Shown here one piece after another: positions 5,897 through 35,137 of a stretch of DNA of 64,000 nucleotides. Every line of letters begins with the position of its first letter. The first letter of the stretch is position 1. The notes under the pieces were generated by a model. That model was not told the DNA's origin. It did not search any database and worked only from the letters and a program-made list of their open reading frames with translations. The stretch covers positions 1-64,000 of the forward strand of contig NZ_NSFV01000014.1 in NCBI RefSeq assembly GCF_002295115.1, given 5' to 3'. The position numbers and the translations under genes are program-made. This DNA comes from Mesorhizobium sp. WSM4311 (lineage in GTDB: Bacteria; Pseudomonadota; Alphaproteobacteria; Rhizobiales; Rhizobiaceae).

Positions 5897-7459
5897 TTAA
5901 GCAAGCGTCGGTTGATGCCCTGCCTTGCCCCTTACCATCCCCGCAATCCCCTCCAGCAGCGCCCTCTGCTCGCCCACCCAGAACCAGTGATCCTCTCCCT
6001 CCACCTCGACAAACCGCGCCCCCGCTATCCGCGCCGCCAGATACCGCCCGGCCTCGACCCGCACCGCCCGGTCACCCCTGCGGTGCAGCACCAGCGTCGG
6101 CGCCCTGACCTTTGACAGCAGCGGCCGCACGTCGGCGTCGCGCAGCGCCTGCAGCAGGCCGGCCACCGCGCCGGGGCTGGAGGCGGCCCGGAGCAGGCCG
6201 GCCCACCAGGCGCGCGCCTGGCGGTCGGAGGCCACGCTCGGTGCAAAGGTTTCGATTTCCGCCGGGCCACCCCAGCCGGCGAGCAGGCGCTGCTGCCACA
6301 GATCATATTGCGCCGAGGTGAGCGCGAAGGGATAGTCGGGCGCGCGGCTGCCCTTGGCGAGCGAGCCCCACAGGACCAGGCCGGTCAGGCGGTCGGGGTG
6401 GTCGACGGCGAAGCGGATGCAGCCCGGCCCGCCCTCCGAGGCGCCGACCAGTACGGCTTTGCGGCTGCCGGCCGCGTCCATCACCGCCAGTATGTCGCGC
6501 GCTGTGGCCTCGACGGTCGGGCGGGCGCCGACGCGGTCGGACAGGCCCATGCCGCGCCGGTCGAACAGGATCAGCCGGCCGAGCCGCGACACGGCACCGA
6601 GCCAGGCGCGGCAGCTCCTGTCTTCCCAGATGCGCTCGACATGCGAGATGAAGCCGGGAACGAGCACGATATCGGCCGGGCCGCTGCCCATCGTCTGGTA
6701 GGCGATATGGATGCCGTCCACGGCGACATAGCGGGTTCTCGGCATCTCCGCTTCGGCATCGCCGGCGCGCAGCAGAGCGAGCGTCGCCGGGTCGGGCGCC
6801 ACGCCGAGTTCGTCGCGCAGCAGCCGCATACAGGCCTCGCCCTGGCGCTCGGCCGCCGCCCGGTCGCCGGCGGCCAGATGGGCGCGGATCAAATGGCGGT
6901 GCGCGCTTTCGCTCAACGGGTCGAGGGCGGCAAGGCGCGTTGCGTGCATCACGGCGCCGCCCGCGTCGCCGCCGGCGATCCTGGCTTCCACCTGCCGCTC
7001 CAGCGCCTGCACCAGCCGGCTGCGCAAGGCCTCGCGGCGGAAAAACACCCATTCCTCGAATTCGGGACAATCCGGCAGCGCGAAGCCGGCGAGATAGTCG
7101 CCGGTGTAGAGGCCGGCGGCCTCGTCGAGCAGACCGGCATCGCAGGCATGGTCGAAGGCGATGGCGTCGGCCTCGACCAGGAGCCCCGGGCGCAGGCTGA
7201 GCGACGCCGCGCCGGCTGATATGATCTCCTCGCCGAACGCGATGCGGATCTTGTACAGCGTGCGCCGCAGGCGGGCGCGGGCGGCTTGCGCGTCGGCCTC
7301 GGGCCACAGCAACGTGGCGGCGACCTCTCGCGCCACCGGTCCTCCGGCCTCGGCAAGGTAGATGACAAGCGCGGCCGCCTTGCGCAAGGCGAGCTCTACC
7401 CGCCGCCCGTTCAGCCGGAACTCCGGAAAACCCAGAAGTCTGAGTTGTATCGGCTCCAT
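5897..7459 (-). CDS. SARP/BTAD-type transcriptional activator fused to an alpha/beta hydrolase
   Basis: A 520-aa two-part protein. Residues 1-95 form an OmpR-like winged-helix segment and about 96-235 a bacterial transcriptional activation (BTAD) repeat domain with ELGVAPDPAT at its end, as in AfsR/SARP regulators. Residues 241-515 are an alpha/beta hydrolase with VLVPGF near the oxyanion strand, nucleophile Ser341 in VGASEGG and a probable catalytic His491 (EGEDHWFW). The hydrolase half resembles those fused to adenylate cyclases and other signalling domains, so it may sense a small ester or act as a ligand-binding module. Residues 241-282 are duplicated exactly at the left edge of the window. 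It is divergent from the methyltransferase gene at 7655. Target genes are unknown. Confidence 0.88.
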   Translation of the reverse strand: MEPIQLRLLGFPEFRLNGRRVELALRKAAALVIYLAEAGGPVAREVAATLLWPEADAQAARARLRRTLYKIRIAFGEEIISAGAASLSLRPGLLVEADAIAFDHACDAGLLDEAAGLYTGDYLAGFALPDCPEFEEWVFFRREALRSRLVQALERQVEARIAGGDAGGAVMHATRLAALDPLSESAHRHLIRAHLAAGDRAAAERQGEACMRLLRDELGVAPDPATLALLRAGDAEAEMPRTRYVAVDGIHIAYQTMGSGPADIVLVPGFISHVERIWEDRSCRAWLGAVSRLGRLILFDRRGMGLSDRVGARPTVEATARDILAVMDAAGSRKAVLVGASEGGPGCIRFAVDHPDRLTGLVLWGSLAKGSRAPDYPFALTSAQYDLWQQRLLAGWGGPAEIETFAPSVASDRQARAWWAGLLRAASSPGAVAGLLQALRDADVRPLLSKVRAPTLVLHRRGDRAVRVEAGRYLAARIAGARFVEVEGEDHWFWVGEQRALLEGIAGMVRGKAGHQPTLA

Positions 7460-7654
7460 CGATCCGCACGCGGCCGCGCAAGGAGAGGACGTTGAGGGGA
7501 CGCCGGCCTTCTATCCACCCCCCGGTTTCGCGCCGATCCGGCCCGATCAACTCCCTTGGAGCGAGAAATGTCACCGGTCAATACATCAAGCCATCGCACT
7601 TCAGAACCGCTTGGCGGCTGCCGCGTCCCTGCCGCCGGGCATGGAGGCTGAGTC

Positions 7655-8290
7655 ATGTGCCAGACCTGCCTCTCCTGGTATGCGCGCTGCGTCGCCCCCT
7701 ATTTCGTCCATGCCGGCTGTTCGGCCGGCACATTCACGCGGATGCGCAGTCGCGTCATCCCGAGGGCTGAAGGTGTCGTCGTCGAGGTCGGCTTCGGCTC
7801 GGGCCTCAACCTGCCCTATTACGACGCCGCCAGGGTGGAGCGGCTGGTCGGCGTCGACCCCGACGGCACCATGCTCGGCCTCGCCGCGCCGAAGAGCCGC
7901 GCCATGCCCTTCGCCGTCGAATGCATCCGCGCCGGCGGCGAAAGCCTGCCTTTGGCCGATGGCATCGCCGACACGGTGGTCGTCACCTATGCCTTCTGCA
8001 CCATTCCGGACCCCGAGGCCGCGCTCAGCGAAATCCGCCGCGTCCTGAAGCCGACAGGCCGGCTGATCTTCATCGAGCACGGCCAGGCCGAGGGAGCGCG
8101 CTGCCGCCGCTGGCAGCAGCGGCTGAACCGGTTGTGGGGTTCGATCGCCGGCGGCTGCCACCTCAACCGCGATCCGCTGCGCCTGATCGGCGGGGCGGGT
8201 TTTCGCCTGCTCGAGGTGCAGCACGGCCGGTTTCCCCTGCCCCTATGGCAGTTGGGCAGCCACCACGCCGGCATCGCGGCCGCAGACTGA
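7655..8290 (+). CDS. Class I SAM-dependent methyltransferase (UbiE/PmtA-like)
   Basis: A 211-aa cytosolic methyltransferase. Motif I is VVEVGFGSGLN (about residue 40), followed by the acidic ribose-binding position in VGVDPDG. A post-motif LPLADGIADTVVVTYAFCTI and the RRVLKPTGRLIFIEHG strand are typical of the UbiE/COQ5-like fold. The N-terminal MCQTCLSWYARCVAP and a compact C-terminus are shared with small uncharacterised alphaproteobacterial methyltransferases sometimes annotated as phospholipid N-methyltransferases. The substrate is unknown. GGAGG seven bases before the ATG supports the start. It is transcribed away from the regulator/hydrolase gene, with about 195 bases between them. Confidence 0.88.
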   Translation: MCQTCLSWYARCVAPYFVHAGCSAGTFTRMRSRVIPRAEGVVVEVGFGSGLNLPYYDAARVERLVGVDPDGTMLGLAAPKSRAMPFAVECIRAGGESLPLADGIADTVVVTYAFCTIPDPEAALSEIRRVLKPTGRLIFIEHGQAEGARCRRWQQRLNRLWGSIAGGCHLNRDPLRLIGGAGFRLLEVQHGRFPLPLWQLGSHHAGIAAAD

Positions 8291-8423
8291 CCGGCCTGCG
8301 CCGGCCGCGCGTTCATTTGGCCGCTGGCCTTGCAGGGAACCCAGCCTGCAGCCTGCCCGGCCCAGGGTCATCTTGCCCCGTGCATCGATGTCGCGCCGCA
8401 CTTGCATGCCGCCATGGCCGCCC

Positions 8424-9926
8424 TCACAGCGCCAGGCTCCCCTGCTCCGCCTCCTCGGCATCGGGGTCGCCGGGAGCGGTGGCCCAGGCGAGTTCGACCA
8501 GCGTCACGGTGCGCTTTCCGGTGCCGTCGAGCTGGCAGACGATCAGCCCCTGCTCCTCGATATAGGTCAGCAGGCGGCGGGCGCGGCGCAACGAGTGCGA
8601 GCCATAGGCGCGCGCGATCGCGGCGTCGCTCGGGCACGGCCAGCCTTCCTTCGCCGCCCGCGCGATCATCATGAACACGCCCTGCATGTCGTCGGGCAGC
8701 AGCGAGGCGCGCACGGAAACGTCCCGCCAGGCGTCGTCCTGCGTCGTTTCGGCGCCGAGGCCTGCGCGGGCGCGCGTCAGCATGCGGCGGAATTCGGCGA
8801 GGTCCGGCACAACCGAGGCCAGGCCCTCGATGCGGCAGCGCACCACGAATTCCTGATAGAGCACGCCGATCACGCGAAAACCCGCATCGGGCTGTGCCAG
8901 GATGGCGCGCAGCACGCGGTCGACCCGCTCGCGCCGCTCCGCCAGGTCCTCGGCGCTGATTTGCGGTTCCGCCGGTTCGGGGCGGATTTCCAGCGCCGCC
9001 GATTTCGCCGCCATCAGCTGGTCGAGCAGGTCCGGCGACGCCACCCGGCGCGGCGTGCGCACCGTCTCGGGCGGCGGCGCCGCCAGGATGATCGCGCGGG
9101 CATCCTCCAGCGCTGCCTCCGGCATCGCCATCAGCCGCGGCGTGCCGTTGCGCGGACTGGTGTCGGTCGGGCCGATGCGCAGGCCGAGCGGCCGGCGCGA
9201 CAGTGCCGGCCCCAGCGCCATGAACTGCCCCCGCTCCAGGTCGCGAAAAGCTTCCGCCTGGCGCCGCTCCATGCCGAGCAGATCGGCGGCGCGCGCCATG
9301 TCGATGTCGAGGAAGGTGCGGCCCATGAGGAAATTGGAGGCTTCGGCCGCGACATTCTTGGCGAGCTTGGCCAGACGCTGCGTGGCGATGATGCCGGCCA
9401 GCCCGCGCTTGCGGCCACGGCACATCAGGTTGGTCATGGCGCCGAGCGAGAGTTTGCGCGCCTCGTCGGAAACCTCGCCGGCCACCGCCGGCGCAAACAG
9501 CTGCGCCTCGTCCACCACCACCAGCATCGGATACCAGTGGTCGCGGGCGACCTCGAACAGCCCGCCGAGGAAGGCGGCGGCGCGGCGCATCTGGTTTTCG
9601 GCGTCGAGCCCTTCGAGGTTGAGCACGGTGGAGACGCGGTGGATGCGCGCCCGCTCGCCGGCCGCCTGCAGGCCGCGCTCGGTGTGCTCCTCGGCATCGA
9701 TCACCAGATGGCCGTAGCGCTCGCCGAGCGAAACGAAGTCGCCTTCGGGATCGACAATGGTCTGCTGCACCCAGGGCGCGCTCTGCTCCAGCAGCCGGCG
9801 CAGAAGATGCGATTTGCCGGAGCCAGAATTGCCCTGCACCAGAAGGCGGGTCGCCAGCAGTTCCTCGAGATCGAGGTTCGCTGGGGCGCCCGCCGTGGTG
9901 TGTCCCATCTCGATCGCAACGGTCAT
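8424..9926 (-). CDS. HerA/FtsK-like ATPase (DUF87-type ATP-binding protein)
   Basis: A 500-aa P-loop ATPase. Walker A is GNSGSGKS at residues 32-39 and Walker B is MLVVVDEAQLF, with the HerA-like NLMCRGRKRGL and IATQRLAKL (sensor-like) segments after it. The C-terminal 200 residues hold a probable winged-helix region. HerA relatives are hexameric DNA translocases that usually work with the nuclease NurA; no nuclease is adjacent here, so the gene stands alone. The start is set at the ATG at 9926. A TTG at 9938 has a better-spaced AGGAG and could be the real start. A longer in-frame extension to 10094 has no family support. Confidence 0.8.
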   Translation of the reverse strand: MTVAIEMGHTTAGAPANLDLEELLATRLLVQGNSGSGKSHLLRRLLEQSAPWVQQTIVDPEGDFVSLGERYGHLVIDAEEHTERGLQAAGERARIHRVSTVLNLEGLDAENQMRRAAAFLGGLFEVARDHWYPMLVVVDEAQLFAPAVAGEVSDEARKLSLGAMTNLMCRGRKRGLAGIIATQRLAKLAKNVAAEASNFLMGRTFLDIDMARAADLLGMERRQAEAFRDLERGQFMALGPALSRRPLGLRIGPTDTSPRNGTPRLMAMPEAALEDARAIILAAPPPETVRTPRRVASPDLLDQLMAAKSAALEIRPEPAEPQISAEDLAERRERVDRVLRAILAQPDAGFRVIGVLYQEFVVRCRIEGLASVVPDLAEFRRMLTRARAGLGAETTQDDAWRDVSVRASLLPDDMQGVFMMIARAAKEGWPCPSDAAIARAYGSHSLRRARRLLTYIEEQGLIVCQLDGTGKRTVTLVELAWATAPGDPDAEEAEQGSLAL

Positions 9927-10238
9927 GTCTCGACTCAAAAAGGTCTCCTGCGCGGCATGGGGCTTAGCAACCCAGGCGCGGCCCGTCGAGCACCGATGGC
10001 CGGCGGCCCGGTGTTGCGCACAGTTGTGAGGAAAGGGCCGGCAGGAACGGCCGCCGTCATGCGCCCCTGTGGATAGTAACCACTCATTCACCATGGGCCG
10101 GCGTTGCGGTTGCGGAGGCCGGCCATCCGTTTAGCCTGACCTTGCATCGCGCCCCAACGAGATGCACCCCAACGCCCCAGACGGCGGCCGGCGTCTTCAA
10201 GTTTCGTTTCTGTATGCGCCGGTCGTCAGTTTTGTCAG

Positions 10239-10925
10239 CTACAGCGCCGCACCTTGCCGCGGCATCGGTGCCAGGGGCGGTGCATCCAGGCCCTCGAAAG
10301 GGTCGCGCCAGGCGTCGATGGCTTCGAGCCGGCGATACCAGCGGTCGAGCGCGGGATAGTCGCCGAGCGGCAGGCCGGCGGCATCGTTGAACGGCAGGAA
10401 GGCCGCCATGCGGAAATCGGCATAGGAAAGCGACGTTCCGACCAGCCACTGCCGGCCGGCCAGTTCCGCCTCCAGGATCGCGGCCCCCTTGTGGAACTCT
10501 TCCAGCCCCTTGCTGACCTTGTCCTCGTCGATCGGCCCGATGCCATAGCGCTGCTTGGTGCCGCGCTCGAAATGCACGGTGTCGCAGGCGCGCATGAAAT
10601 TCTCCTTGCCCCAGCTCAGCCAGCGGATCATGTCGGGTTCGTCCTCGCCGGTGCGCCAGAAATCGGAACGCGCCGCGCGCGACAACCGGCAGGCTATGGC
10701 GTCGGCCTCCCACAGACTGCCGCCGGGCCATGCCAGGATGGGAATGGAGAGGTTGGGATTGAGCGGCCGGAATCGCTCCGCTTGCTCCGGCGCAAAGGGT
10801 GACGCGAATTCGAAGGCCACCTCGGCCTTGAGATGGCGCGCCACCGCGACCGCCAGGCGCGGATTGGGATTGCGGCTGAAATACAGTGTCATTTCGCCCA
10901 CGGCCGGCTCGACCTTGTCATTCAT
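10239..10925 (-). CDS. Glutathione S-transferase family protein
   Basis: A 228-aa soluble GST. The N-terminal thioredoxin-like half runs to about residue 85, with the cis-proline loop LSIPIL. In the gamma-Glu-binding position the usual Glu-Ser is Glu-Ala (LWEADAIACRL). The all-helical C-terminal half contains the fold-stabilising ERWL...SYADF-type segment (LVGTSLSYADFRMAAFL). Such proteins conjugate or reduce electrophiles with glutathione; the exact class cannot be given. The start at 10925 is chosen because AGGAG lies six bases upstream; an in-frame upstream start at 11009 lacks one. It is divergent from the 102-aa gene at 11058. Confidence 0.85.
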   Translation of the reverse strand: MNDKVEPAVGEMTLYFSRNPNPRLAVAVARHLKAEVAFEFASPFAPEQAERFRPLNPNLSIPILAWPGGSLWEADAIACRLSRAARSDFWRTGEDEPDMIRWLSWGKENFMRACDTVHFERGTKQRYGIGPIDEDKVSKGLEEFHKGAAILEAELAGRQWLVGTSLSYADFRMAAFLPFNDAAGLPLGDYPALDRWYRRLEAIDAWRDPFEGLDAPPLAPMPRQGAAL

Positions 10926-11057
10926 GAGTGTCTCCTGGTCCTGGCGAACATGCCAGACCAAGGACGCGACTGGCAGGCGCAATCCGACAAAGTGTGGGTT
11001 GACCACCATCGATGGCGAGGCGACACTTCATATCGCACCAAGGCAGGAGGAATTGCG

Positions 11058-11366
11058 ATGGACGAGCCCGAACGGTGGCGCCACATGTCGACGGCACCCA
11101 AGGACGGCAGCCGGATCCTGGTCACGGTCCGTCCCTCCGAACAGGGGCCGGCGGAAGTCGACCTCGCCTACTGGTCGCGCGGCGACCAGTTCGCCGGTGA
11201 AGGCTGGCGGGCATCGGATTCCTCGCCCGGCCGCGTCGTCGAATATGCCGAACCGGAACTGAAGTGCTGGATGCCCATGCCCTCGGCCAACCTCAGCCGC
11301 GGCGGCTCGATGCCCGCCCCCTGGGAAGGCGACGACGCGCAACAGCTGGATGGGTCCGGGATTTAG
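11058..11366 (+). CDS. Conserved hypothetical 102-aa protein (DUF551-like)
   Basis: A small acidic protein with the segment WRHMSTAPKDGSRILVTV near the N-terminus. This matches the W-x-P-x-DG-x-x-I-L-V pattern of DUF551-like domains common in rhizobia and phages, whose function is unknown. A strong GGAGG (11046-11050) sets the start. The last five residues and the stop codon lie inside the first copy of the tandem repeat at 11348-11469, so the C-terminus appears to have been supplied by a repeat insertion. Confidence 0.7.
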   Translation: MDEPERWRHMSTAPKDGSRILVTVRPSEQGPAEVDLAYWSRGDQFAGEGWRASDSSPGRVVEYAEPELKCWMPMPSANLSRGGSMPAPWEGDDAQQLDGSGI

Positions 11367-11469
11367 CGAGCGGCCGGTGAAGCCGCCGATCTCCCCCCTC
11401 GTGGGTTGGATAGGTCCGGGATTTGAGAGCACCGACGGTGAAGCCGCCGATCTCCCCCCTCGTGGGGGA
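11348..11469. repeat. Tandem direct repeat, two units of about 61 bp
   Basis: The units start at 11348 and 11408 with GGATRGGTCCGGGATTT and share GGTGAAGCCGCCGATCTC, then CCCCCTCGTGGG. The second unit ends in a perfect hairpin, CTCCCCC-TCGT-GGGGGAG (arms near 11452-11470). It lies between the convergent ends of the 102-aa gene and the aldo/keto reductase gene and could act as a terminator. Related GGAGATTGGCAGC words occur at 36342 and 39049, so this is a dispersed genomic repeat. Confidence 0.75.
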
Positions 11470-11494
11470 GATCGGCAGCTTCCCTGCAGGCTCT

Positions 11495-12325
11495 TCAAAA
11501 CAAAAATGCCGCCGTCGCCGGGTTCGGTCCGTCGCGGCCATCGGCCGAATCCATGCCCGCGATCGTCTTCAGGTCCTGCGCGTCCAGTTCGAAGTCGAAG
11601 ACATCGAAATTGGCCGCGATGCGGTCCTGGCGGACCGATTTGGGGATGACGATCAGCCCTTGCTGGAGATGCCAGCGGATGATCGTCTGCGCGGCGGATT
11701 TGCCGTGCTTGCGGGCAATGCCCGCGATCGTCGGATCGCCGAGCAGCCGGCCGCTGCCGAGCGGGCTCCAGCTCTCCGTCTGGATGTCATGCCCGGCATG
11801 AAATTCCCTGAGCGCGCGCTGCTGGAAACGCGGATGCAGCTCGATCTGGTTGGCCACCGGGACCACGCCGGTCTCGCCGATGATGCGCTCCAGATGGTCC
11901 CTGTTGAAATTCGAAACGCCGATCGACTTGATGCGGCCGGCCTGCTTCAGCTCGATCAGGGTCTTCCAGGCCTCGACATATTTGTCCTGGCTGGGCACCG
12001 GCCAGTGGATCAGGAACAGGTCGATCCGCTCGATGCCGAGTTTTTCCATCGTGTCGTCGAAAGCGCGCAGGGCCGCGTCGCGCTCGTGCGCACCGTTGCG
12101 CAGCTTCGAGGTGATGTACAGCTCGCTCCTCGGCACATCGGCGGCGCGGATCGCCTCGCCGACGCCCTCCTCGTTCTGGTAGCCCTGCGCGGTGTCGATC
12201 AGCCGGTAGCCGGCCTTGATCGCCCAGCCCACCACGTCGGCGGTGATGCCGTGATCGACCTGCCACACGCCAAGGCCCAGCTGGGGAATGATGGTGCCGT
12301 CGTTCAGCGTGATCGGTTCGGGCAT
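11495..12325 (-). CDS. Aldo/keto reductase (2,5-diketo-D-gluconate reductase type)
   Basis: A 276-aa NADPH-dependent carbonyl reductase of the AKR5-like group, expected to be cytosolic. The catalytic tetrad is visible: Asp44 and Tyr49 in LIDTAQGYQNE, Lys74 in ITSKL and His107 in LFLIHWP. Later come the signature IKSIGVSNF and the NADPH-binding IPKSVRQDRIAAN near the C-terminus. Length is normal for the family. The physiological substrate (keto-sugar, methylglyoxal or other aldehyde) cannot be deduced. It is monocistronic and convergent with the 11058 gene. Confidence 0.93.
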   Translation of the reverse strand: MPEPITLNDGTIIPQLGLGVWQVDHGITADVVGWAIKAGYRLIDTAQGYQNEEGVGEAIRAADVPRSELYITSKLRNGAHERDAALRAFDDTMEKLGIERIDLFLIHWPVPSQDKYVEAWKTLIELKQAGRIKSIGVSNFNRDHLERIIGETGVVPVANQIELHPRFQQRALREFHAGHDIQTESWSPLGSGRLLGDPTIAGIARKHGKSAAQTIIRWHLQQGLIVIPKSVRQDRIAANFDVFDFELDAQDLKTIAGMDSADGRDGPNPATAAFLF

Positions 12326-31521: not shown

Positions 31522-31529
31522 CAAAAAAA
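31522..31529. repeat. Left target-site duplication CAAAAAAA
   Basis: Eight bases directly abutting the left inverted repeat, identical to 35130-35137 abutting the right end. Eight bases is the size made by IS1595-family transposases. Confidence 0.9.
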
Positions 31530-31553
31530 GGCGATTATGTATTTTGCGAACCA
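31530..31553 (+). repeat. Left terminal inverted repeat
   Basis: Reads GGCGAT, then TATGTATTTTGC, then GAACCA. It pairs with the right end apart from two substitutions in the 12-base block and one extra block present only on the right. Confidence 0.85.
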
Positions 31554-31594
31554 AGCGCTACATCTAGCCCGTCGCTAAACGGCCGTAGAAGCGC

Positions 31595-31774
31595 CTACTT
31601 CTTGCGTCGGCGGCGCGCCTTAGCCTGCTCCACAGCCGGTATGTCGTCTTTCGGCTTGTGCTTGGCTATCCTTCTCAGCTTGGCATCAAAGGCTTCTTCG
31701 GAATCATCGCAGCCCAGTTCCCGAGCGGCTTGTTCAAATTTCTGAGCTTGCGTAAGGTGCTTCTCACCAATCAT
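31595..31774 (-). CDS. Transposon cargo: 59-aa basic helical protein
   Basis: A frame of 60 codons including the stop, starting with ATG at 31774. The sequence has an N-terminal helix (LTQAQKFEQAARELGCDDSE), a second helix (EAFDAKLRRIAKHKP) and a very basic tail (KARRRRKK). The size, charge and two-helix pattern suggest a nucleic-acid- or protein-binding accessory factor. It is divergent from the ParB-like gene with 50 bases between starts, and could regulate that pair, as small basic proteins often do in mobile elements. No enzyme motif. Similar short ORFs accompany other mobile elements, but I cannot name a family. Confidence 0.7.
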   Translation of the reverse strand: MIGEKHLTQAQKFEQAARELGCDDSEEAFDAKLRRIAKHKPKDDIPAVEQAKARRRRKK

Positions 31775-31824
31775 ACTGTAATGTCCTGTCTCTAATCGCG
31801 GACAATTCTTTGGGGGGAAGTGCG

Positions 31825-33126
31825 ATGGCTAATACTCGACATCCGGATTCTATCGAGGTTGACCGTATTTATCTCTATGAGGAAAACCCTCGTCACGAGC
31901 CTATGGAATCTCAGGATGAGATTATAGAGTATCTGTGCAAGGACGAACAGGTTTTCAATCTGGCTCGGAGTATCTCCGAAGCCGGCCCCAACCCGCTTCA
32001 ATTGGTCGGCCTGGTACAGGTTCCGGGGTCCGGAAAGGCCTCCACCAAGAAGACCTACCAAGTGTGGGAAGGCAATCGCCGGCTTTGCGCGATCAAGCTA
32101 CTGAACGATCCAGACCTTGCGCCGCCGCATCTCCGGAGAGATTTTGCCCGCTTGGTCTCGACCTCGGCTCACCTTCCGATAAAGAAGCTAAATGCGGTCA
32201 TTTTTGATGACCATGACGATCTGAAATTCTGGATGGGGGTCATCCACGACGGAGCACAAAGTGGTGTCGGTCAGTTGGATTGGGACGCCCAGCAGAAGGC
32301 CCGCCACTTCGGCACAAGCCGCAACCGAGTAGCCCTGTCGGTTCTGGACGCAGCAGAGAGCTTAGGGTTCATTTCAAAAGATGAACGCCAAGGCAAACTA
32401 ACTACAGTCCAGCGATTCCTGAATAGCAGCGTTGTGAAGGAAGCCCTTGGAATCGACGCCAGCAATCCTGACGACCTCACATACAACCGACCACTTGAAG
32501 ACGTCAAAAAACAGCTTTCTCGATTCTTCGACGACCTGAAAGAGGGGCAGAAGGTAACCTCGCGAATGAACCGCGCGCAGGCGGACGCCTACGGTCGCAA
32601 GCTTGCTGCAAACTCGGATATTACTGGCGAACGGACCGAACCCATTGCGTTGAAAACGATAACACCGGCCGTTGTGAAAAGCCGGCGGAAAACCCAGCCC
32701 AAGAAGCCGCGCCCGGCTACGCATCTCGAATATGACAAGCATCTAGCAAAGGCGTTGGAGGATCACACCAACTCCAAGCTTGAAGCCCTCTACTATTCGA
32801 TCTGCGCGGTGCACCTCGATCATACGCTGCTTCTCACCATAGGCGTCTGGGCGTTCATTGAATCATTGGCCGCTCTGGCCGGGAAGCATGCTGACACCGA
32901 CTTCATCGCGTTCTTCAGCAATCAGAGACTCGCCGACCTTGGAATGGGAAGCGGGAAGGCACTCAATCCGGTTCGCGATGCGCTCACACGGCTATCCCGG
33001 AATGGCAACGCGACGAAGCATCACCAGATTTCCGCGAACTTTGATGCTCCGCAGCTTGCGAACGACCTCGCGACGATTACGCCACTGTTGACAAAAACGG
33101 CCGCGTCGCTGGGTCCTCGGAAATAG
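31825..33126 (+). CDS. Transposon cargo: ParB/Srx-like protein with HEPN-reminiscent C-terminus
   Basis: 433 aa. The N-terminal part (about 10-130) matches the ParB/Srx fold: the strand EVDRIYLYEENPRH (ENPR at 20-23) and WEGNRRLCAIKLL (81-93), equivalent to the GERR box of ParB-like nucleases/CTPases. The middle (about 150-270) is a helical DNA-binding-like region. The last 130 residues are helical and end in LTRLSRNGNATKHH (Arg392...His399), an R-x6-H motif like that of HEPN ribonucleases. GGGGGGAAG five bases before ATG 31825 fixes the start. No ParA or parS is nearby, so chromosome partition is unlikely. It is 65 bases upstream of the methylase and probably co-transcribed. Confidence 0.8.
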   Translation: MANTRHPDSIEVDRIYLYEENPRHEPMESQDEIIEYLCKDEQVFNLARSISEAGPNPLQLVGLVQVPGSGKASTKKTYQVWEGNRRLCAIKLLNDPDLAPPHLRRDFARLVSTSAHLPIKKLNAVIFDDHDDLKFWMGVIHDGAQSGVGQLDWDAQQKARHFGTSRNRVALSVLDAAESLGFISKDERQGKLTTVQRFLNSSVVKEALGIDASNPDDLTYNRPLEDVKKQLSRFFDDLKEGQKVTSRMNRAQADAYGRKLAANSDITGERTEPIALKTITPAVVKSRRKTQPKKPRPATHLEYDKHLAKALEDHTNSKLEALYYSICAVHLDHTLLLTIGVWAFIESLAALAGKHADTDFIAFFSNQRLADLGMGSGKALNPVRDALTRLSRNGNATKHHQISANFDAPQLANDLATITPLLTKTAASLGPRK

Positions 33127-33191
33127 CTGTGGCCGTGGCAAGGCTAACTTGCTAGAACTCCCTTAATTTCAAAGGGAAGGGTCCTCTACGC

Positions 33192-34076
33192 ATGCCACTG
33201 GCAACCTCACCGCTGCGGTACCCCGGTGGGAAAGCTCCGCTTATGGGGCTCGTCTCTCAGATCATCCGGTTGAACAAATTTCAGTATGGGCACTATGCCG
33301 AACCTTATGCAGGCGGATGCGGATTGGCTTTGGGCCTGCTTTATGGCGGCTACGTCAGCGATATCCACATTAATGACATTGACCGTGGGATCTGGTCGTT
33401 TTGGCAAGTCGTACTCAACCAGACGGACGAATTCATAGACCTGATGAACCGCACTCCGATCACTCTTGATGAGTGGCTGCGACGGCGTGAGATGCAGCGT
33501 AACCAACGTGGGCTCTCTCAATTGGAAATTGCCTTCACCACGTTCTTTCTCAATCGAACAAATCGATCCGGGATTATTAAGAACGCGGGTGTGATTGGCG
33601 GGCTAAATCAGGCGGGCGACTACAAGATTGACTGTCGTTTCACCAAGAGCGAATTGGAGCGACGGATTAGGCGTGTGCGAAGATATCGAGACCGCATTCA
33701 CCTTCACCGGAAAGACGCTCTGGACTTTCTAAGGCATGTGGAGCGCAACCTTCCCGAAAGCACATTCCTTTGTATCGACCCTCCATATTTTAACAAAGGC
33801 TCTACTCTCTACACGAGCTTTTATGAGCCGGAGGACCACGCCGCAGTCGCCGCAAAAATCCTTGACCTCGACCGACCTTGGATAATCACGTACGACCGTT
33901 GCGATGAAATCAGTGCGCTCTACACCTCGCGCAGGCAGTATGAGATTTCCCTCAATTATTCTGCGCAGGTGAAGCGGGTTGGGTCTGAACTCTTGATCGC
34001 TTCAAAGGGTCTCAAGCTGCCTCAGCAAATTCGCGAAGCTCAGGTCCACAAACCTCAGTATCGAAGCGCCGCCTAA
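33192..34076 (+). CDS. Transposon cargo: Dam-family DNA adenine methylase
   Basis: 294 aa, a D12-class (alpha-group) N6-adenine methyltransferase. Motif X is SPLRYPGGK (6-14); the SAM-binding motif I is AEPYAGGCGLAL (36-47); the target-base motif IV is DPPY at 196-199 (LCIDPPYF). Length and motif order match Dam/DpnM-type enzymes. The recognition sequence is not predictable. No type II restriction endonuclease is adjacent; the only partner is the upstream ParB-like gene. It may methylate the element itself (timing of transposition or protection from host restriction) or act with the ParB-like protein. The gene ends 51 bases from the convergent transposase. Confidence 0.88.
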   Translation: MPLATSPLRYPGGKAPLMGLVSQIIRLNKFQYGHYAEPYAGGCGLALGLLYGGYVSDIHINDIDRGIWSFWQVVLNQTDEFIDLMNRTPITLDEWLRRREMQRNQRGLSQLEIAFTTFFLNRTNRSGIIKNAGVIGGLNQAGDYKIDCRFTKSELERRIRRVRRYRDRIHLHRKDALDFLRHVERNLPESTFLCIDPPYFNKGSTLYTSFYEPEDHAAVAAKILDLDRPWIITYDRCDEISALYTSRRQYEISLNYSAQVKRVGSELLIASKGLKLPQQIREAQVHKPQYRSAA

Positions 34077-34127
34077 CGGTGCTTCCGCTTCATGGCTTCC
34101 CAAAGTTGTTGCGGGGTTAACTGACGT

Positions 34128-35051
34128 TTATTCGGCGGCGAGGTCAGGCCTACGATAGGTGAGGCGCTTGCCGGTGGCACCCTTCAGCGCGAGGGAAGCG
34201 CGGGTGCTGTCGTCGACCCCAAGGGCAACGCGGTTGCTGTAGCGGAAATCGAACTCTGCCAGATAGCGGTGCAGATGCTGCTCGCCGCAATGCTGATAGA
34301 CGCCCTTCATGCCGCGCTTGAAGATCGAATAGTAGCCTTCGACAGTATTTGTGTGGATCGTGCCGCGAACGTATTCGTCCTTGGAATGCGTGACGAAATC
34401 GTGCGAGGCGAAATCCTGGCTGGCGCGGCGATAGATGCCGGACTCGTCGGTCATCAGCGCGCTTTCCTTGGCGATGTTGGCGCGAACGATAGGCATGACG
34501 TTGCCCATGCGGGTGGTATCGACATGGAAGGAACGGGCACGACCGCCGCGCTCGACCAGCGTGACGACGACGTTCTTGTGAGAGCCGCCAGCCTTTACCG
34601 GAGCACCCTTCAAACGGCCAATGTAGGTTTCGTCAACTTCGACGGTCTTGCCGGAGCCGCCCAACGGGGAAAGCTCGCCAGACGCCATTGCGAGGCGAAT
34701 GCGGTGGCACAGGAACCAAGCGCTCTTGTATTGAATTTCTAGGATACGATGCAGTTGGTGTGCACTAATCCCCTTCTTAGAGGAAACCATCAAATGCACT
34801 GCTTGCAGCATCTTGTTCAGGGGAATACGGCCGTGTTCAAAGACCGTGCCAACCTTCACCGTGAACTGCTTCCGACAATGCCGATCCTTGCATTTCCAAA
34901 CACCAATACGTGTAGCTTGGCCCTGCAATTTTGTGGCGTTGTTAATGGAGCCGCAGTGCGGGCACACCGGCTCTCCCTTCCATAGGGCTTCTTCAAGGTG
35001 CTCGAAGGCAGCTGCTTCGTTGTGAAAGTATGGGTTGGATAGGATGGACAT
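34128..35051 (-). CDS. IS1595-family transposase (ISXO2-like)
   Basis: 307 aa, intact. An N-terminal zinc ribbon uses Cys30, Cys33 (CPHCG), Cys54 and Cys59. A helical DNA-binding region (KKGISAHQLHRILEIQYKSA) follows, then the DDE-type core with Asp140 (VEVDETYIG), Asp202 (MTDESGIY) and the third acidic/Asn position in HTNTVEGYYSIFKR (Asn235, Glu238). These are the marks of the ISXO2-like/IS1595 superfamily. GAGGG five bases before the ATG at 35051 supports the start. It faces the methylase gene and is transcribed inward from the right end. Confidence 0.95.
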   Translation of the reverse strand: MSILSNPYFHNEAAAFEHLEEALWKGEPVCPHCGSINNATKLQGQATRIGVWKCKDRHCRKQFTVKVGTVFEHGRIPLNKMLQAVHLMVSSKKGISAHQLHRILEIQYKSAWFLCHRIRLAMASGELSPLGGSGKTVEVDETYIGRLKGAPVKAGGSHKNVVVTLVERGGRARSFHVDTTRMGNVMPIVRANIAKESALMTDESGIYRRASQDFASHDFVTHSKDEYVRGTIHTNTVEGYYSIFKRGMKGVYQHCGEQHLHRYLAEFDFRYSNRVALGVDDSTRASLALKGATGKRLTYRRPDLAAE

Positions 35052-35099
35052 GACTGCCCTCTAAATCTGAGGTTCACACTATCCATCGTGGTTTGGTTT

Positions 35100-35129
35100 G
35101 TAAAGTACATAGTAAAGTACATAATCGCC
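35100..35129 (-). repeat. Right terminal inverted repeat with internal 12-bp duplication
   Basis: On the plus strand: GTAAAGTACATA at 35100-35111 and again at 35112-35123, then ATCGCC at the element's edge. The left end has one equivalent block only. An AAACCA-type word (TGGTTT on plus, 35094) follows inward, matching GAACCA on the left. Confidence 0.85.
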
Positions 35130-35137
35130 CAAAAAAA
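35130..35137. repeat. Right target-site duplication CAAAAAAA
   Basis: Identical to 31522-31529. It abuts the last base of the right inverted repeat. Confidence 0.9.

Follow-up and report, generated by a model that had tools for sequence, protein, structure and literature searches.

PD-Lambda-5 was found as an anti-phage system by functional selection in Escherichia coli, and the available passages of that report describe a compact 'RM+Abi' system tested in a host without the mrr region (Vassallo et al. 2022, PMC9519451). Transporter elements of the IS1595 family, which combine an IS1595 transposase, inverted repeats and a target duplication with passenger genes, include tISCpe8 and MTnSag1; the portions of the account available present both as mobilisable, tISCpe8 with lincomycin resistance (PMC5704250). 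Both the element kind and PD-Lambda-5 are already known. The locus described here is a 3.6 kb element at positions 31530–35129 of a 64,000-nucleotide stretch (the window) of Mesorhizobium sp. WSM4311, contig NZ_NSFV01000014.1. With slightly better than even confidence, it is interpreted as a complete IS1595-family transposon that has a PD-Lambda-5 anti-phage operon as its passenger, the operon acting by the mechanism proposed below. The element boundaries, the family assignments, the recurrence of the gene pair, the predicted folds and a conserved promoter-like site are the parts of this interpretation that the sequence analysis itself shows.

The passenger consists of gene A (31825–33126, forward strand, 433 aa) and gene B (33192–34076, forward strand, 294 aa), which lies directly downstream on the same strand after an intergenic gap of 65 bp. 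PADLOC assigned A to PD-Lambda-5_A (PDLC04000, E 3.6e-164, residues 6–429 of 433) and B to PD-Lambda-5_B (PDLC04018, E 4.3e-119). B is a D12-class DNA methyltransferase with DPPY by Pfam and NCBIfam, and it scores below NCBIfam's own Dam cut-off. An earlier reading of the DNA, made from the letters only (the sequence-only reading), had called it an adenine methylase, which holds as a family label (Pfam D12), a label that does not establish the chemistry. Among named copies of A, that of Mesorhizobium loti CJ3sym is the most similar (84 %); A shares 31 % identity, across roughly one third of its length, with a protein of Escherichia phage Wphi. The likeness to the published system lies in two adjacent proteins on one strand with PADLOC matches far above noise; the original, in the passages available, is a prophage version from E. 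coli, whereas the present copy lies on an IS1595-family transposon in Mesorhizobium (PMC9519451).

Two identities proposed or considered for the pair were rejected. The sequence-only reading had ranked it as the window's best candidate for an undescribed system; this fails because both proteins match the models of PD-Lambda-5, reported as anti-phage in 2022. That reading had also offered a defence module as one possibility, which fits the match to a known anti-phage system, and had denied that the pair is a partition system. Consistent with the latter, a ParABS assignment was rejected since none of S, A, B and the transposase, which are all the non-overlapping genes of the element, matches a ParA family (Pfam, E 1).

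The element is bounded by a 12-bp terminal inverted repeat, GGCGATTATGTA, at 31530–31541 (left, forward strand) and 35118–35129 (right, reverse strand), flanked by identical copies of CAAAAAAA at 31522–31529 and 35130–35137 that form a perfect 8-bp target-site duplication. The 12-mer is confined to the element's own two ends in the host assembly (6.98 Mb, 43 contigs), and the end pattern read backwards occurs nowhere in the 6.98 Mb. The insertion site is intergenic, beside a LysR-like gene assigned by reading its protein. When the left flank was searched in 138 related genomes, 82 matched, and the best 11 loci were examined for an empty site. Two of the 11 (L127 and L133, in genomes G015 and G059) had the flanks side by side without the element, with junction sequences somewhat unlike the target in the window; the other nine yielded either no right flank or a match of only 27 bases. 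The L127 junction reads CCCCAGAAGGGG and the window target CCCCAAAAAAAGGGG, so that L127 is not an exact pre-insertion copy. These element-free sites point to a past insertion. The ends, the perfect duplication and the two unoccupied sites confirm the earlier claim of an intact IS1595-type transposon with certain boundaries.

The transposase (34128–35051, reverse strand, 307 aa) is ISXO2-like and was identified with PF12762 (111 bits, cut-off 27) and NF033547 (182.7 bits, cut-off 75); it and the methylase are the only element proteins that Pfam and NCBIfam recognise. Among 199 genomes of relatives, transposase homologues at E 1e-40 were found in 67 and homologues of a small open reading frame (ORF), S (31595–31774, reverse strand, 59 aa), at E 0.001 in 34. 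We then used 55 loci, comprising 40 transposase regions drawn from a longer match list, 14 regions around A homologues and L003, and searched them for end pairs with up to three mismatches per end, an exact 8-bp duplication being required for delimitation. Out of 708 end pairs, 26, in 24 loci, had an exact duplication; chance is of no concern for the family because nine shifted offsets yielded one in all. Because the two elements of L085 and their composite account for three pairs, the 26 pairs represent 25 separate elements, or 26 with that of the window. At least one element was delimited in 23 of the 40 transposase regions, the remainder being cut by contig ends or failing the criterion. 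The terminal inverted repeats and 8-bp duplication that mark IS1595 elements were thus found in the window and family-wide, and the delimited elements span 2.3–4.0 kb.

An S-like ORF was present in 24 of the 26 delimited elements, always on the transposase strand; the two elements without it (L025 and L120) have more distant transposases. S-like proteins often have a lysine-rich tail. S may assist transposition or its regulation. The sequence-only reading had counted three cargo genes dispensable for transposition, which stands for A and B; S belongs instead to the backbone. In the CJ3sym-type copy (L003/L021), S, A and B are kept and the transposase gene is in pieces about 2.5 kb apart.

The cargo of the family is varied. 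For 20 chosen cargo proteins, Pfam gave no match at E 0.01 in 10; the matches were SocA/Panacea (2), HARE-HTH, DUF5343, NYN, DUF3800, Beta protein, PIN_10/DUF5615 and PIN, and one protein matched DUF433 just under the cut-off. PADLOC identified BstA (L095, L101), HEC-09 (L085, L092), PD-Lambda-2_C (L096) and PD-Lambda-5 A and B (L025). The HEC-09 and PD-Lambda-2_C matches are weaker than those of BstA and PD-Lambda-5 because HEC-09 has a name without a description in the PADLOC library and PD-Lambda-2_C is one component of a larger system. In a blind comparison, the 25 elements supplied 68 cargo ORFs (80 aa or longer) and their flanks an equal number, sampled in like manner out of 205; the picking was mechanical, so that many of the 68 per side may not be genes. 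The cargo ORFs matched 36 PADLOC families at 1e-8, all 36 from seven ORFs in six of the 25 elements, and the 68 flanking ORFs matched none. The overall pattern, a conserved backbone of transposase, S and ends around exchanged cargo, looks new.

Several individual elements of the family may be noted. BstA, known from prophages, lies in L095 and L101 on IS1595-type elements of 3.8–4.0 kb, in L101 near a SocA/Panacea gene. The host genome holds a second family element (L096, contig C34, 1439–5456 of the locus), whose cargo is a Beta-protein/PD-Lambda-2_C-like gene. In L085 two elements (6070–9330 and 9339–11826) are neighbours, and CACATAAA stands on both outer sides as well as between them, which would fit insertion of the second at the target duplication that flanks the first. 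L025 is 45 % identical to the window element in the transposase, 25 % in A (first 247 residues) and 45 % in B; on these sequence identities, PD-Lambda-5 came together with an IS1595-type transposon on two separate occasions.

To follow the inheritance of the pair, A homologues were sought in the 199 genomes of relatives (15 matched, host included; loci L021–L034), in 397 genomes of the order (11 at E 1e-20, host included; loci L135–L144, of which L135, L136 and L144 repeat sites of the relatives' set) and in viral contigs (13 loci). A B homologue adjoined A in 8/14 loci of relatives, in 8/10 order-wide loci (6/7 when repeated sites were removed) and in 11/13 viral contigs, the other two of which (L152, L156) end at or near A. 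No B homologue was found beside the full-length A-like proteins of L029 and L032, and the A matches without B in L026, L028, L033 and L034 were partial or weak. In the reverse direction, A lay upstream of 20 of 80 kept B homologues, about half of the 80 being less than 35 % identical to B. By this distribution A and B form one unit within the close group, and B is found by itself as well. The sequence-only reading had tied its idea of a system to ends that recur with cargo and to joint inheritance of the pair: the ends do flank other cargo elsewhere, and A and B co-occur also without this transposon, while B is often found without A.

The same survey bears on a role of the pair in transposition itself, through self-marking of the element or target immunity and with no part in defence. 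The sole point in its favour is that the pair lies inside the element. Sibling elements with like ends and transposase do not have the pair and carry other genes, which indicates that the pair is dispensable for transposition, and in viral contigs the transposase was not found beside the pair. This explanation is highly improbable, and the self-marking suggested from the sequence found no support among the siblings. Since the pair is found in phages and in genomes without this transposon, the transposon is best described as its carrier.

The architecture of A was predicted from structure models. The full-length model, built with 12 sequences, had a mean pLDDT of 79 and a pTM of 0.41, making the domain packing unreliable. 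The predicted layout is a ParB-type fold at about residues 5–146, a helical middle and a HEPN-like domain at about 312–433. For the N-terminus, Foldseek matched Noc, ParB and KorB with probabilities of 1.00 to 0.97 (E 1.5e-3 to 2.1e-2), and VIA aligned ParB to model residues 5–146 with Z 9.4 over 98 residues at 2.5 A. The motif EGNRR (residues 82–86) is invariant across the 12 sequences. A sequence search of A against solved structures returned chance matches only (best E 0.088).

The last 140 residues of A were modelled alone, with L157 left out of the alignment (pLDDT 88, pTM 0.84). Rows 1–19 of the 50 VIA matches (Z 8.1 to 5.7) comprised HEPN-named proteins, MntA-HepT, Csm6, RnlA, AbiA and a few unnamed or older entries; among the last, YutE, TT1696, P95883 and a 'probable nucleotidyl transferase protein' are taken by us to be HEPN relatives. 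Later rows had Z 5.5 or lower and were mostly unrelated bundles, with some Csm6 and Csx1. We write 'HEPN-like' because the tool advises about Z 13 for helical bundles. The motif GNxTKH (residues 394–399) is invariant in the 11 aligned C-terminal domains. The usual HEPN motif is Rx4-6H, and A of the window has R392-x6-H399 with H399 conserved. The joining of a ParB-type fold to a HEPN-like domain, as predicted for A, looks new. A-like proteins in L027, L029, L031 and L032 have an LNxxxH-type motif in their C-terminus in place of GNxTKH, and the effector domain of A-like proteins may be exchangeable.

These predicted folds bear on whether the pair works like restriction-modification, with A as a DNA-cleaving nuclease from which B protects host DNA and with no cell suicide. 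A single methylase family adjoins A in the close group examined, and ParB-type folds occur in DNA-acting defence proteins such as SspE (Z 5.3 against the A N-terminus), as this explanation would expect. Against it, the C-terminal domain of A is HEPN-like, HEPN being a fold of RNA-acting toxins, and A has no restriction-endonuclease domain in Pfam or NCBIfam, a result that leaves room for nucleases absent from those libraries. A restriction-modification-like pair is therefore considered unlikely.

A HEPN-like fold would also suit an addiction module of toxin-antitoxin type that stabilises the transposon, A being toxic and B its antidote through methylation. The SocA/Panacea, PIN and PIN_10/DUF5615 genes carried by family siblings are of kinds often found in toxin-antitoxin modules, which fits the same explanation. 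B, however, often occurs without an upstream A (60/80), although this shows merely that B can exist alone, and one PD-Lambda-5 member protects against phages in a direct test given in the published passages (PMC9519451). We regard addiction, too, as an improbable account of the pair.

The region upstream of B was compared among homologues. In the aligned A–B gap of nine homologues, TGGCCG and a following TA, 17 bases apart, are invariant columns; in the window the element reads TGGCCG-N17-TAGAAC (33130–33158, forward strand). For 54 dereplicated B homologues, less than 75 % identical, 110 bp upstream was searched, and TGGCCA or TGGCCG was found in 29; elsewhere in these loci, 320 of 3111 windows of that length contain it. 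The commonest upstream hexamers were CTGGCC (17), TGGCCA (16) and TGGCCG (13), whereas in 200 shuffles, which keep each sequence's base composition only, the commonest hexamer averaged 8.5 with a maximum of 11. Of the 29, 23 have a TA at a distance of exactly 17 bases and four of the remaining six have one at 18; any spacing other than 17 (range 8–27) was seen at most five times. A first control region, −700 to −400, was dominated by A-rich hexamers (up to 27/54); the matched-length 110-bp control was run because that region was longer (300 against 110 bp) and coding where A lies upstream. Twelve further records, picked by us from 37 listed rows and with the start of B estimated in some that were unannotated, had the site in three (a Kosakonia plasmid and phages phiNP and Javan645), all with N17; in other windows the count was 23/682.

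The site resembles a promoter, its −35 box being the palindrome TGGCCA or a close variant. It emerged from comparison alone: the sigma-70 scan gave no consensus match for it, and sigma-70 and terminator scans of the element gave no excess over shuffles. The stricter pattern TGGCCR-N17-TANNNT does not match in the window, whose own copy reads TAGAAC, and the site was defined with TA only. An Rfam scan of the window at the gathering score returned no family. As a conserved promoter-like site upstream of B, it looks new.

The literature on TGGCCA was searched after the idea of a self-target had arisen, and the following is drawn from the relevant portions of each source. In Acinetobacter baumannii A118, TGGCCA m4C is made by an orphan 'DNA adenine methylase', H0N27_12600 (PMC10287943), and in Shewanella algae the same mark is assigned to a type II alpha methylase, E1N14_009720 (PMC8340859). 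A figure legend gives TGGCCA m6A in Photorhabdus luminescens (PMC6092372), and TGGCCA 4mC in a Listeria isolate has low and patchy scores (PMC12016153). Two further enzymes are predicted to recognise TGGCCA: a prophage methylase from A. woodii, whose cloned form acted unspecifically (PMC6700114), and a Chania orphan alpha methylase (PMC5005818). Homologues of B at 44.5 % identity were found in two A. baumannii records; the one examined has no TGGCCR upstream. By analogy between the site TGGCC(A/G) and the published TGGCCA mark, B may act on its own promoter.

From these observations we infer throughout the function of the element and of the pair, including the steps of marking, sensing and killing. 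In the proposed mechanism, B would methylate host DNA at sequences of the TGGCCA type; as such a sequence overlaps the −35 region of the B promoter, the enzyme would limit its own expression. A would scan DNA with its ParB-type nucleotide-binding fold and helical middle. During infection, DNA without the expected mark, or a phage disturbing the system, would release the C-terminal HEPN-like domain of A, which would then damage RNA and stop the cell, an abortive infection. The transposon would spread such modules, its transposase, S and ends staying while the cargo is exchanged. More tentatively still, PD-Lambda-5 may in general be a methylation-referenced suicide switch, in which a ParB-type NTP-driven DNA scanner is fused to a HEPN toxin and partnered by a methylase that doses itself at a TGGCC(A/G) site in its −35 region, and in Mesorhizobium such modules, BstA and others may be dispersed by a dedicated minimal family of defence-cargo transposons (transposase, S and cargo); we regard this broader proposal as possible and distinctly less probable than the first.

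Several results weigh against this mechanism. All Foldseek matches of A stay above E 0.001; the HEPN matches (Z 8.1 to 5.7) lie under the advised value of about 13, with a Foldseek E of 0.23. R392 varies in close homologues, so that RNase activity is not assured. The C-terminus of the more distant L157 (28 % identical) is without GN.TK and keeps the histidine only. As for the promoter-like site, L025 and L192 have TGGCCR without either TA spacing, and TGGCCR is missing upstream of B in 25 of the 54 homologues, in several of which B abuts or overlaps A. Nine of the 12 further records are likewise without the site, some of them without an adjacent A, and in L242, L248 and L250 B overlaps the preceding gene. 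Two papers give the published TGGCCA mark as m4C and a third as m6A, and the link proposed here between those methylases and B is the TGGCC(A/G) sequence.

The family can be placed beside described carriers and folds. What sets the Mesorhizobium elements apart from tISCpe8 and MTnSag1 is the conserved S, together with cargo that in some of them is of a defence or toxin-antitoxin-like kind. Tn7-like carriers of defence genes are large and multi-gene, with site selection, whereas the Mesorhizobium elements have one transposase within 2.3–4.0 kb. The likeness to Tn7-like transposons, as far as the available text describes them, is that of exchangeable defence genes on transposons (PMC10121019). 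ParB-CTPase fold proteins beyond partition resemble A in joining a ParB-type fold to other domains and in their links with methyltransferases and prophages; unlike the pairing in A, neither PD-lambda-5 nor HEPN occurs in the available text of that source (PMC12704722).

In a literature covered in part, no title or abstract was found that links IS1595 elements to defence cargo, and the literature searched gave no instance of the combination of IS1595 with PD-Lambda-5, of cargo exchange around S or of the promoter site. The literature passages on PD-Lambda-5 gave no explanation of its mechanism, and the TGGCC(A/G) site supplies a candidate recognition sequence and form of regulation for the system. 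Known carriers of defence genes are phages, plasmids, conjugative elements and large Tn7-like transposons. If the interpretation is correct, elements of 2.3–4.0 kb that swap one defence or toxin-antitoxin-like module for another would rank with the smallest such carriers, and their cargo could be found by the ends, each delimited element bracketing a short set of candidate genes.

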